Below, piece after piece: positions 49,721 through 54,233 of a DNA stretch of 56,128 nt. The notes below the pieces were generated by a model. The model did no database searches. It had not been told where the DNA came from and saw nothing but the letters and a program-made list of their open reading frames with translations. Within the stretch, counting starts at the first letter, position 1, and every line of letters begins with the position of its first letter. The DNA comes from Tissierellia bacterium (lineage in GTDB: Bacteria > Bacillota > Clostridia > Tissierellales > Tissierellaceae): assembly GCA_012728125.1 (NCBI GenBank), contig JAAYFT010000027.1, forward strand, positions 1 through 56,128. Direction: 5' to 3'. Made by a program: the position numbers and the translations under genes.

Positions 49721-49734
49721 TGAACGAATGTTCG
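49721..49734 (+). promoter_or_regulatory. LexA (SOS) operator
   Basis: TGAACGAATGTTCG matches Gram-positive GAAC-N4-GTTC box, just downstream of recA -10. Confidence 0.85.
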
Positions 49735-49773: not shown

Positions 49774-50817
49774 ATGACTGATAATTTAGAGAAGAAAAAA
49801 GCTTTAGACTTAGCCATAAGTCAGATAGAAAAACAATTTGGTATAGGCTCTATTATGCGCCTTGGAGAGAATGCCAAATTGAATATTGAAGTTGTACCCA
49901 CTGGTTCCTTAGATTTAGATATTGCATTGGGCATTGGTGGATTACCTCGAGGTAGAATAATAGAAATCTTTGGACCAGAATCATCAGGTAAAACAACTGT
50001 ATCCCTACATGCAATTGCAGAAACACAGAAATTAGGAGGTGTAGCTGCATTTATAGATGCAGAGCATGCTTTAGATCCGTCCTACGCAGAAAGACTAGGT
50101 GTAGATATCGAAAACTTAATAATATCACAGCCTGATACTGGAGAACAAGCTTTGGAAATAACTGAAGCACTAGTTAGAAGTGGTGCAGTAGATATAGTAG
50201 TAGTGGATTCAGTAGCTGCCTTAGTACCTAAAGCAGAAATAGAAGGTGAAATGGGTGACAGCCACATTGGTCTCCAAGCTAGACTAATGTCTCAAGCCCT
50301 AAGAAAACTAGCTGGGTCCATAAATAAGTCAAATACTATTGTAATTTTTATTAACCAGTTGAGAGAAAAAGTAGGAGTAATGTTCGGAAACCCCGAAACT
50401 ACTACTGGTGGTAGGGCATTAAAATTCTATGCTAGTGTAAGGTTAGATGTTCGAAGAATTGATTCCATAAAACAAGGCGATGAGATAATTGGAAACAGAA
50501 CTAGGGTTAAAGTTGTTAAAAACAAATTAGCTCCACCGTTTAAGCAGGCTGAGTTCGATATTATGTATGGTACTGGTATATCTAAAGAAGGAAGTTTACT
50601 TGATGCTGGAGTCACTACAAACATTATTAATAAGTCTGGTTCCTGGTATAGCTACGGTGAACATAGGCTAGGACAAGGAAGGGAAAATTCTAAAGAATTC
50701 TTAAGGGAAAACCCAACTATAGCTAAAGAAATTGAAGACAAAATACGTGCTAAATTAGGACTGATTGAAGATCCTAATCCTTCAGAAGAACAAGCTTCTG
50801 AAGATGAAAATAAATAG
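49774..50817 (+). CDS. recA: Recombinase A
   Basis: [46 protein letters not shown]. Confidence 0.99.
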
Positions 50818-50850
50818 AAATAAACCTCCTTTTTTAGGAGGTTTATTTGT
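50818..50850 (+). terminator. Intrinsic terminator after recA
   Basis: AAATAAACCTCCT TTTTT AGGAGGTTTATTT, 13-bp perfect stem. Confidence 0.8.
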
Positions 50851-50853
50851 GAG

Positions 50854-51846
50854 GTGTTGGATTTGAAAATATTGTATTTTACCGATACTCATATTAGAGG
50901 TACTAACCCTAAAAACAGAAAAGACAATTTTGTTGATACAGTTGAAAAAAAATTAATAGAGATAACTGATATTATTGAAAAATATGATATAGACTTTGTT
51001 TTACACGGTGGAGATTTATTTGATAGGCCAGATATATCTATATCCATTGCCAGTAGGTTCTCTCTAATTTTAGATAAAATTAAAGTTCCTTTTTATCTAG
51101 TAAGTGGTAATCACGATGTATTTGGGCATAATCCAGACACCATTAGTAGGACAATGCTAGGCTTGCTAGATATACTTGGAGTAATAAAAATCATTAAAGG
51201 CAATGATAAAATTATTCTCGAAAAAAATAATATAAAAGTTCAATTAACTGCCCAGCCCTATGTTTATGATATTGATTCACCTGAAAACTTAGATTATTAT
51301 ATAGTTAAAGATGTAGAATCAGGTGTTAACTATTCTATCCATGTGGTACACGGAATGCTACTTGATAAACCTTTTATTAAAGGTATACCATATACCCTTG
51401 TCGATGATATAAAAGAGACCTTAGCTGATATTACTTTATCTGGCCATTACCACGGTGGCTTTAAAACTGTAAAAATAGACAATAAATATTTCATCAATCC
51501 AGGCAGCATGGTAAGAATATCCAATAGTATAAAAGAAATTGAAAGAATACCAAAGGTAGTAATAATTGATTTGGCACAAGACATTCAAATTAAAGAAATT
51601 CCTCTAAAATCTGCTTTACCTGGAGAAGAAGTACTCGATAGAAGTGAAATTGAGAAAAGTCTATTTAAAAATGAAAGGATAATGGAGTTTAAGCAAAGCA
51701 TAGATGCTGCCTTAGACTTTGAAAAAATGGATATAAATGAAGTACTTATCAAGGTGTCAAATGCAGAAGGAGTTGAAGATGAAGTAATAAAGGAAGCCTT
51801 GAGGAGAATTGCTAATACTCAGATGAAAGGTATAAGTGGTGACTAG
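50854..51846 (+). CDS. Mre11/SbcD-like metallophosphoesterase (DNA repair exonuclease)
   Basis: FTDTHIRG, HGGDLFDRP, SGNHDVFG, VHGMLL, SGHYHGG: complete phosphoesterase motif set. Start TTG 50854 or 50863. Confidence 0.88.
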   Translation: MLDLKILYFTDTHIRGTNPKNRKDNFVDTVEKKLIEITDIIEKYDIDFVLHGGDLFDRPDISISIASRFSLILDKIKVPFYLVSGNHDVFGHNPDTISRTMLGLLDILGVIKIIKGNDKIILEKNNIKVQLTAQPYVYDIDSPENLDYYIVKDVESGVNYSIHVVHGMLLDKPFIKGIPYTLVDDIKETLADITLSGHYHGGFKTVKIDNKYFINPGSMVRISNSIKEIERIPKVVIIDLAQDIQIKEIPLKSALPGEEVLDRSEIEKSLFKNERIMEFKQSIDAALDFEKMDINEVLIKVSNAEGVEDEVIKEALRRIANTQMKGISGD

Positions 51847-51847
51847 T

Positions 51848-53290
51848 ATGAAATATATTAAGAAAGTAATATTGGAGAATTTTCAATCTCATAAATACAC
51901 TGTTTTAGAATTTAATGAGCAATTAAATGTAATAGTTGGACCATCTGATAGCGGTAAAACAGCAATTCTAAGAGGGATCAGATGGGTTCTTTATAATGAG
52001 CCTTCTGGAGATTACTTTATTAGGGAAGGAGAAAATCATTGTTCGGTTACTATTGAATTTAGTGATGGTATAAAAGTAAAGAGATTTAGAAGTAGGAGTA
52101 AAAATATATATTACCTATATAATTCAGATAATGATGAAATAGTATTTGAAGGATTTGGTACATCAGTACCTGATGAAATTATTAATGCAACAGGAATAAA
52201 GAAAATAATTTTAGACAAGGATCTTTCTAAGCCTATCAATTTAAGTGACCAACTGGAAGGAGCCTTTCTGTTGTCAGAAAAAGGATCAACCAGGGCTAGC
52301 TCAATAGGTAGGCTAGTTGGTGTAAATATTATTGATGATACTATTAGAGATACTTTAAGGGATATAAGAAGCTTATCTGTTAAAAAGAAAAGTATTGAAG
52401 AAAGAGTGTCAAAATTAGAAGAGGAACTATCCCAGTATGAGTATTTAGAAGAGCTGAAGAGAAGAATTGAAAAAATTAGTCATATTAGAAATGAGATCTT
52501 CACCAAAGAAAAGCTATTAACTATCTATAAGAATTCCCATGAAAAATTGCAACAATTACAGAAAGAGAAAGAAGAAGTTAATTATTATTTACAAAGGCTA
52601 GGTAATATTAATTTTTTGCTGGATATGCAAAATAATATAGCTGCCAATATTAATAAATATAACTACTTAAAGACTAAAAGGAATCAATTACATAAATTGT
52701 CCCAAGACAAAGAATATAGCATGAAAATAATTAGCTCTCTAAAAGAATTACCCATGGTTGAAAATAATACAAACAAAATTAGCAAATTATTAGATCTTAA
52801 TAATCAATTATTGAAGCTTGAATCTTCTCTGAAAAGGGTAAATAAGGAAGCAAGTGAACTATCATTAATTAGGGATAAATTAGCTGGAATAACCTATGTA
52901 GAAAAGAGTTTAGAAACCATGCAAAAAACAATGGAAAGGTTAAAGAAACTCAAAGATATTCAGATTAAGGGATTTTCATTAAGAAAAAGCTTAGCAATTG
53001 GGGAAAAGTACATTGAAAGATTTGAAAATGTTGATCAAGTAATCCATATAAAAGATGATTTAGAAAATAAGATACTTTTATTAAATAGATTAAATTCTTT
53101 ACAAAAAAGCTTGGCTTCAATTAAAAGTGAGATTAATAATGTTCAAAGCTTAGTTAAACAGTATAAAAATACAATGGATATTAAAATTGAAGAATACAAG
53201 GATTTATTGCTTAAACTAGAGGTCTGTCCTTTATGCTTTAGTAACATAGATGATAGTAAAATTGAGCATATAATAAACCACTATAATTAG
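51848..53290 (+). CDS. Rad50/SbcC-like ATPase, N-terminal half (Walker A, coiled coil, C-terminal zinc-hook-like CPLC)
   Basis: ILENFQSHKYTVLEFNEQLNVIVGPSDSGKTAILRGIRWVLY; long heptad-rich region; CPLC at 53225-53236; no Walker B/signature in this ORF. Confidence 0.85.
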   Translation: MKYIKKVILENFQSHKYTVLEFNEQLNVIVGPSDSGKTAILRGIRWVLYNEPSGDYFIREGENHCSVTIEFSDGIKVKRFRSRSKNIYYLYNSDNDEIVFEGFGTSVPDEIINATGIKKIILDKDLSKPINLSDQLEGAFLLSEKGSTRASSIGRLVGVNIIDDTIRDTLRDIRSLSVKKKSIEERVSKLEEELSQYEYLEELKRRIEKISHIRNEIFTKEKLLTIYKNSHEKLQQLQKEKEEVNYYLQRLGNINFLLDMQNNIAANINKYNYLKTKRNQLHKLSQDKEYSMKIISSLKELPMVENNTNKISKLLDLNNQLLKLESSLKRVNKEASELSLIRDKLAGITYVEKSLETMQKTMERLKKLKDIQIKGFSLRKSLAIGEKYIERFENVDQVIHIKDDLENKILLLNRLNSLQKSLASIKSEINNVQSLVKQYKNTMDIKIEEYKDLLLKLEVCPLCFSNIDDSKIEHIINHYN

Positions 53291-53301
53291 GAGGTATAAT
53301 T

Positions 53302-53553
53302 ATGGATTATGAAAAGGAATTAAACCTATTAAAAGAAAACTTGGAGAAGGCTAAAAACTTAAAATATAAAGCTGAAGCAAGATTAGAACAACTTAATCAA
53401 CAAGAAAATGAGATTATAAAAGAGCTAGAACAAATGGGCATTAAACCTGATGAGTTAGAAAGTGAAATTAACAAACTTACTACTGAAATACAGAAGTTAT
53501 TTAAGGAAGCAAATGAGCTATTACCTAAGGATTTATTAGAAAAGAAGGGATAA
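53302..53553 (+). CDS. 83-aa coiled-coil-like protein between split ATPase halves
   Basis: AGGAGG RBS; charged heptad-like MDYEKELNLLKENLEKAKNLKYKAEARLEQLNQQENEI. Confidence 0.7.
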   Translation: MDYEKELNLLKENLEKAKNLKYKAEARLEQLNQQENEIIKELEQMGIKPDELESEINKLTTEIQKLFKEANELLPKDLLEKKG

Positions 53554-53554
53554 A

Positions 53555-54208
53555 ATGATAGAAAACTTACATGACTTAGATAGTTTTATAAATTATTCTA
53601 AAGAGTATTTATCTAGGGAACTGGGAAAACAAGAAATTATTAAAGAACAAATAATTCAAAATAAGGAAGAATTATATAAAATCGAAGATGAAATCAATCT
53701 ATTAACTAAGGTAAATATATTGCTCCAAAAGACCTCCGAATTTGCAAGGGAACAAGCTAAAAAACAGGTTGAATCACTAGTTACTAAATGCTTACAGTAT
53801 ATATTCGAGTCAGATATTGAGTTTATAATTGAGATTGAGGAACTAAGAGGCAAATCCAACGCCGAGTTTTATGTGGTAAATACTATGGACGATATATTAA
53901 TTAAAACTAAACCGGAGCTTTCACGTGGTGGAGGGGTAGTAGATATAGTGTCATTAGCCCTTCGAATAGCTATTTTACAGACCCATAAACCTAAAATTCA
54001 AGGACCATTAATCTTAGACGAGCCTGCAAAACATGTAAGTGATGAATATATATTTAACGTAGCTGATTTCTTAAAGCAAACTTCAGAATTATTCAATAGA
54101 CAAATCATAATGGTAACTCATAATAATCATCTGGCTGCCATTGGAAATAATTCTTATAGGGTGGATATTAAAGACTCCCAAAGCACTGTAATTAAGATTA
54201 TATCTTGA
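53555..54208 (+). CDS. Rad50/SbcC-like ATPase, C-terminal half (signature, Walker B, H-loop)
   Basis: [20 protein letters not shown] (53918 on), PLILDEP (54005-54025), IIMVTHNN (54104 on); no Walker A in this ORF. Confidence 0.85.
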
Positions 54209-54233
54209 CATTATACAATAAAAGTAATAAAAT
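54205..54233 (+). promoter_or_regulatory. rny promoter
   Basis: Perfect TTGACA (54205-54210), 17-nt spacer, TAAAAT (54228-54233). Confidence 0.8.

Follow-up and report, generated by a model that had tools for sequence, protein, structure and literature searches.

In Mre11-Rad50 and SbcCD, both lobes of the Rad50/SbcC ATPase lie on one polypeptide, whereas in the loci surveyed here they are encoded by separate genes, with the exception of two loci (L228 and L229). The locus described here resembles these systems in the Mre11 ligand set, the ABC head motifs (Walker A, Q-loop, Walker B and H-loop), the CPxC hook and the operon partners, but it differs in that its chains are broken at the hook, its arm is built of 47-residue repeats, an extra subunit (S) is present, the signature reads RGGG and the nuclease (MPE) stays under the sbcd cut-off. 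The Rad50 catalytic domain of Pyrococcus (1f2t/1f2u) likewise consists of N and C segments as separate chains A and B, but it is a crystallised construct without the arm or the hook, while the split reported here is natural. The Mre11/Rad50 fusions of Yoshida et al. (2011; PMC3175470) combine Mre11 with a single-chain Rad50 domain that has both Walker motifs (A and B). Nucleases joined to an ATPase on plasmids and phages were also found here (L073, L075, L156 and L163), but these plasmid and phage fusions consist of MPE and N only, with C separate. In PHROGs, N, S and C are matched as three separate phage proteins (phrog_16465, phrog_18563 and phrog_15167), which are annotated as exonuclease, unknown and ATPase, respectively, and never named as one split Rad50. 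Our literature searches for a split Rad50 or SbcC, which covered open-access papers, found nothing, and the split machine appears to be previously undescribed.

The window analyzed here is the whole stretch of 56,128 nucleotides of a contig (JAAYFT010000027.1) from a Tissierellia bacterium. Between recA (49774..50817, + strand) and rny, it carries four intact ORFs on the + strand: MPE for an Mre11/SbcD-like metallophosphoesterase (50854..51846, 330 aa as listed), N for the Walker-A half of Rad50 (51836..53290, 484 aa), S for a small helical subunit (53302..53553, 83 aa) and C for the C-terminal half of Rad50 (53555..54208, 217 aa). In our judgement, the four genes very likely specify a DNA-end-processing complex of the Mre11-Rad50 (SbcCD) type with a split Rad50, which is linked to the SOS response and stands in place of SbcCD. 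The preliminary description of this DNA took all the frames as intact, which they are, but the listed starts of MPE and N are probably located further 3', because comparison with relatives favors TTG at 50863 for MPE and ATG at 51848 for N.

MPE had been described as a complete Mre11/SbcD-type phosphoesterase, and indeed its ORF is intact and every Mre11 metal ligand is present (D11, H13, D54, N86, H87, H166, H198 and H200). It matched Metallophos in Pfam (5e-13) and, as a profile, Mre11 chains in PDB (best E 4e-10), and Mre11 structures were also matched by Foldseek with the four-gene model mentioned below. Its score against the NCBIfam model TIGR00619 (sbcd) was below the cut-off (28.5 vs 77.65 bits). 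Helices are predicted at the C-terminus (residues 276-299, 307-317 and 322-342 of P0005), the site of the Rad50-binding region in Mre11/SbcD.

N bears Walker A (GPSDSGKT) and lacks the signature and Walker B, as had been claimed, and it also has the Q-loop. It matched AAA_23 in Pfam and phrog_16465 (1e-64), and its profile matched Rad50 chain A (1f2t_A) and the zinc-hook structure 1l8d in PDB. Near its end lies a zinc-hook motif, CPLC, which was not mentioned in the preliminary description. The layout is an N-lobe (residues about 1-165), an arm (about 195-455) of about five 47-residue repeats and CPLC at 464-467, with the chain end 17 residues after it. CPxC is invariant in the N alignment, and since N stops 9-28 residues past CPxC at 134 loci, the chain is broken at the hook tip with no equal return strand. 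N has no long heptad coiled coil that leads back from the hook, as Rad50/SbcC does, and the arm lengths in the structure model are unequal, about 300 residues in N vs a helix of about 80 in C. Across the N arms of 66 chromosomal and 22 viral sequences, which are kin and do not amount to 88 independent tests, hydrophobicity autocorrelation had its peaks at 47 and 94, whereas the same analysis of ordinary SbcC coils gave heptads (7/14) and no peak at 47. The distance from lobe to hook clusters at about 402, 449 and 493 residues, with a few sequences at 281 and 351, and the main clusters are separated by about one 47-residue repeat. Separately, the N gene is interrupted or shortened in L148 (Caloramator australicus) and L078 (Tissierella sp. 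P1), which reflects either decay or assembly error.

C was assigned by its match to phrog_15167 (8e-62), the profile match to Rad50 chain B in PDB (1f2t_B) and alignments. With regard to its motifs, Walker B (LILDEP) and the H-loop (VTH) are present and Walker A is absent, as claimed earlier, but the signature is not as it was stated: only a signature-like RGGG is found. Throughout the family, phages included, LSGGE is changed to RGGGV with replacement of the signature Ser, and the D-loop Asp is changed to Ser (KHVS). In ABC ATPases, the signature and the D-loop both work in trans between the two heads. Given the replaced signature Ser and D-loop Asp, the ATP cycle may not be the same as in canonical Rad50.

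S is predicted to be a helical hairpin, matched phrog_18563 (1e-10) and is conserved across the family and its mobile elements, with dN/dS of 0.02-0.03. It gave no match in Pfam, only helical and composition-driven matches in PDB, and no convincing homology to N or C. S accompanies long arms and was undetected in five viral loci with shorter arms and in the armless fusions, and this tracking of the long arm suggests that S acts on the arm.

The four genes are widely kept. Of 40 related genomes, 30 have C as a stand-alone gene, and these 30 also have N; the order recA-MPE-N-S-C-rny is retained where the sequence suffices, nearly always preceded by cinA. When 84,980 species genomes were scanned, 304 relatives of C came up, and among the best 80 of these the exact order cinA-recA-MPE-N-S-C-rny occurs in 49, while most of the other loci are cut by contig ends, have no nearby rny or are of the C-rny type. 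Within the phylum, 51 of 299 genomes had a strong C match (49 short ORFs and two fusions). All four genes evolve under purifying selection, with dN/dS of 0.02-0.13, comparable to recA or cinA, and S and C are more conserved than N. In addition, G302, G338 and G458 each have two strong C matches, and the second copies (L230-L232) are each accompanied by a separate set of N, S and MPE, which in L231 is arranged in phage-like order.

The distribution of the canonical system is nearly complementary. When SbcD (TIGR00619) and SbcC (PF13558) were scored above cut-off in the 40 relatives, SbcD/SbcC was found in none of 30 split carriers, whereas both were present in seven of nine non-carriers (Fisher 2e-6), the tenth non-carrier (G006, 55% complete) being left out of the nine; the non-carriers G030 and G032 had no clear SbcCD. 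At the class level, SbcD occurred in 1 of 17 carriers vs 88 of 179 non-carriers (p=5e-4), a count that omits two RecN-like C matches (ORFs of 567 and 588 aa, E ~1e-13). G237 has both the split system and SbcCD. We read this pattern as replacement of SbcCD by the split system in these bacteria. SbcD-like matches resembling the YhaO type occur in carriers and non-carriers alike. As for other repair genes, AddA was above cut-off in 8 of 9 non-carriers vs 3 of 30 split carriers, and a diverged AddA-like ORF (about 1100 aa) is present in most split carriers. Elsewhere in the window genome (G000:C114, L071), a cysteine-desulfurase-like ORF lies beside a 670-aa AAA_23 ATPase, which might be a DNA phosphorothioation (Dnd-like) locus.

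Relatives are also carried by mobile elements, where N-S-C-MPE is the predominant order; these are Bacillus phage vB_BboS-125, plasmids and 40 IMG/VR loci. In an unrooted tree of C, the chromosomal proteins form one group (support 90), and the viral and plasmid proteins are more diverse. The Mre11-like gene of vB_BboS-125 is unannotated (NC_048735.1 22426-23394; L009:6893-7870) and fills a gap between gp36 and gp37. Microbacterium phage Magritte (OR553905.1) has a C-half-like gp2 and a weak N-half-like gp155, about 93 kb apart in record coordinates. The presence on phages and plasmids fits a Lamassu-related defence module with an LmuB-like ATPase, which would attack phage or plasmid DNA and have no housekeeping repair role, and the best PADLOC match of N is in fact LmuB (5e-19), to which C is also weakly similar (6e-7). 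However, LmuB is a single-chain model, no LmuA or LmuC match was found here, and MPE and S matched no PADLOC model. Moreover, the chromosomal copies form a single clade with a fixed place in the core genome next to recA, the whole set is carried by phages themselves, and the split system excludes SbcCD, so that we regard a pure defence role as unlikely.

The pairing of N with C into one head is suggested by several lines of evidence. The same SbcC profile, phrog_77, is matched by the phage homologues of N at positions 299-427 and of C at positions 874-952. The window N and C share a frame, and a read-through chain was modelled in silico with the stops read as Gly and an MSA built from in-frame read-through rows. 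AlphaFold2 gave this joined N-C chain a mean pLDDT of 73.6 and a pTM of 0.47 (0.47-0.52 over the models, all from single-chain co-folding and not multimers, with a low-confidence arm). Foldseek of the joined chain found SMC and Rad50 heads (best 7zr1_D, 2.8e-15; 4ncj_C, TM 0.71 on target) in alignments spanning both halves. The genetically split Rad50 of the preliminary description held in each check: the joined chain folds as a Rad50/SMC-type head, albeit as one chain, no full-length sbcC/sbcD was found elsewhere in the window genome, and no relative has the ORFs merged into one ordinary gene, C standing alone in nearly every genome or locus examined. The assembly of Rad50 from two or three subunits is a prediction.

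Natural fusions point in the same direction. MPE=N fusions with a separate C occur on Geobacillus and Paenibacillus plasmids and in the viral contigs L156, L163, L169 and L181. Two genomes from a single distant family combine MPE, N-lobe and C-lobe in one ORF of about 700 aa (L228, 4155-6260, - strand; L229, 5086-7182, - strand) without arm, hook or S, and this armless protein is the only N-C fusion found. Of all the observations, this armless fusion speaks most strongly for N-lobe, C-lobe and MPE forming one machine. Another candidate MPE=N fusion, an ORF of 811-814 aa in L058/L066 (L105 and L058 are the same contig), was a tblastn match crossing a stop, and the HMM scan resolved it into separate ORFs.

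The halves might instead work with other partners, for example C with a YhaN-like ATPase or each half as a homodimer (N-N and C-C). The window genome does have a YhaO/YhaN-like pair, and N and C do not lie together in every genome: nine loci have C with N missing from the flank, and rny is clearly adjacent in seven of these. The seven C-only genomes examined have MPE-N-S elsewhere, upstream of rimO-pgsA-like genes where these could be read. The unlinked arrangement belongs to an Acetivibrio-like lineage, in which C and MPE-N-S are on different contigs (Acetivibrio mesophilus) or about 20 kb apart (another MAG), and both parts are kept, as expected if the subunits meet as proteins. With N and C together in all 30 carriers among the relatives, complementary in their motifs and fused lobe to lobe in nature, separate partnerships seem quite improbable.

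Programmed frameshift or stop readthrough, which would join the ORFs into one ordinary Rad50, could be suspected from L136 (4747-8217), where all four genes are in one frame and parted by single TAA, TGA and TAG stops; their chain was modelled with a mean pLDDT of 76.5 and matched Rad50 and Mre11 structures. This arrangement is probably due to chance. The N-to-C frame relation among chromosomes is random (27/21/22), which excludes recoding of N and C into one chain, N and C are up to about 6 kb apart in viral contigs or at separate loci, and both S and C begin with a start codon of their own. We therefore see very little room for readthrough. Recent decay or assembly error in an ordinary sbcC is hardly credible and is contradicted by the survey, because the broken N genes of a few relatives (L078 and L148) stand against dN/dS far below 1, a fixed gene order in relatives and boundaries identical across Clostridia, plasmids and phages. 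As judged from sequence comparison, the Rad50 split is ancient and no decay.

As for regulation, a perfect LexA (SOS) box, GAACGAATGTTC, lies upstream of recA (49722..49733, + strand) and is the sole exact match in the window; 39 of 65 relatives also carry the motif ahead of recA. Between recA and MPE lies a terminator-like hairpin, AAATAAACCTCC...GGAGGTTTATTT (50818..50848), with a CCTCC/GGAGG stem, which was found in the window and in five of the seven relatives that were folded, the two without it being L122 and L135. Most SOS transcripts may stop at this hairpin. A search ahead of the unlinked MPE-N-S loci and the isolated C genes gave no LexA box. A promoter-like site after C (TTGACA-17-TAAAAT, 54205..54233, + strand), a consensus match only, probably serves rny. 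SOS co-regulation of MPE-N-S-C with recA is inferred.

We infer an assembly in which N would supply the Walker-A lobe and a helical arm of 47-residue repeats ending at the CPxC zinc hook, and C would supply the lobe with signature, Walker B and H-loop, so that N and C would pair into one ABC head. Two such heads would close on ATP beside a dimer of the putative nuclease MPE, the N arms could be joined tip to tip through Zn, and S, as a third subunit, would pack against the neck or the long arm. This assembly would process DNA ends and hairpins instead of SbcCD and may be co-regulated with recA in the SOS response of Tissierella-like bacteria. SbcCD itself acts as an ATP- and Mn-dependent exo- and endonuclease and cleaves hairpins. 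With somewhat less assurance, we favor the view that this is a distinct architecture: an obligate N-C Rad50 heterodimer broken at the zinc hook, with a one-chain arm of stackable 47-residue units (length steps of about one unit) clamped by a dedicated S and with a remodelled trans-acting signature and D-loop, which would have taken the place of SbcCD in a large lineage of Clostridia and be shared with their phages and plasmids. New here are the end of N after the hook, the 47-residue repeat arm, the family-wide replacement in signature and D-loop, and the tracking of the long arm by S.

Finally, a central question for Mre11-Rad50 and SMC machines is whether the arm of Rad50 has to run as one unbroken antiparallel coiled coil from lobe to hook and back. 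Because the return strand is apparently absent in this family and the whole arm is absent in two genomes, its members are natural experiments on what the arm, the hook and a continuous chain are needed for. The analysis also ties a conserved 83-aa protein without an assigned role to a Mre11-Rad50-like machine. The system is spread over many anaerobic Firmicutes, beside recA, and some of their phages and plasmids, and our results suggest it as a candidate for the job of SbcCD in Tissierella, Peptoniphilus and relatives.
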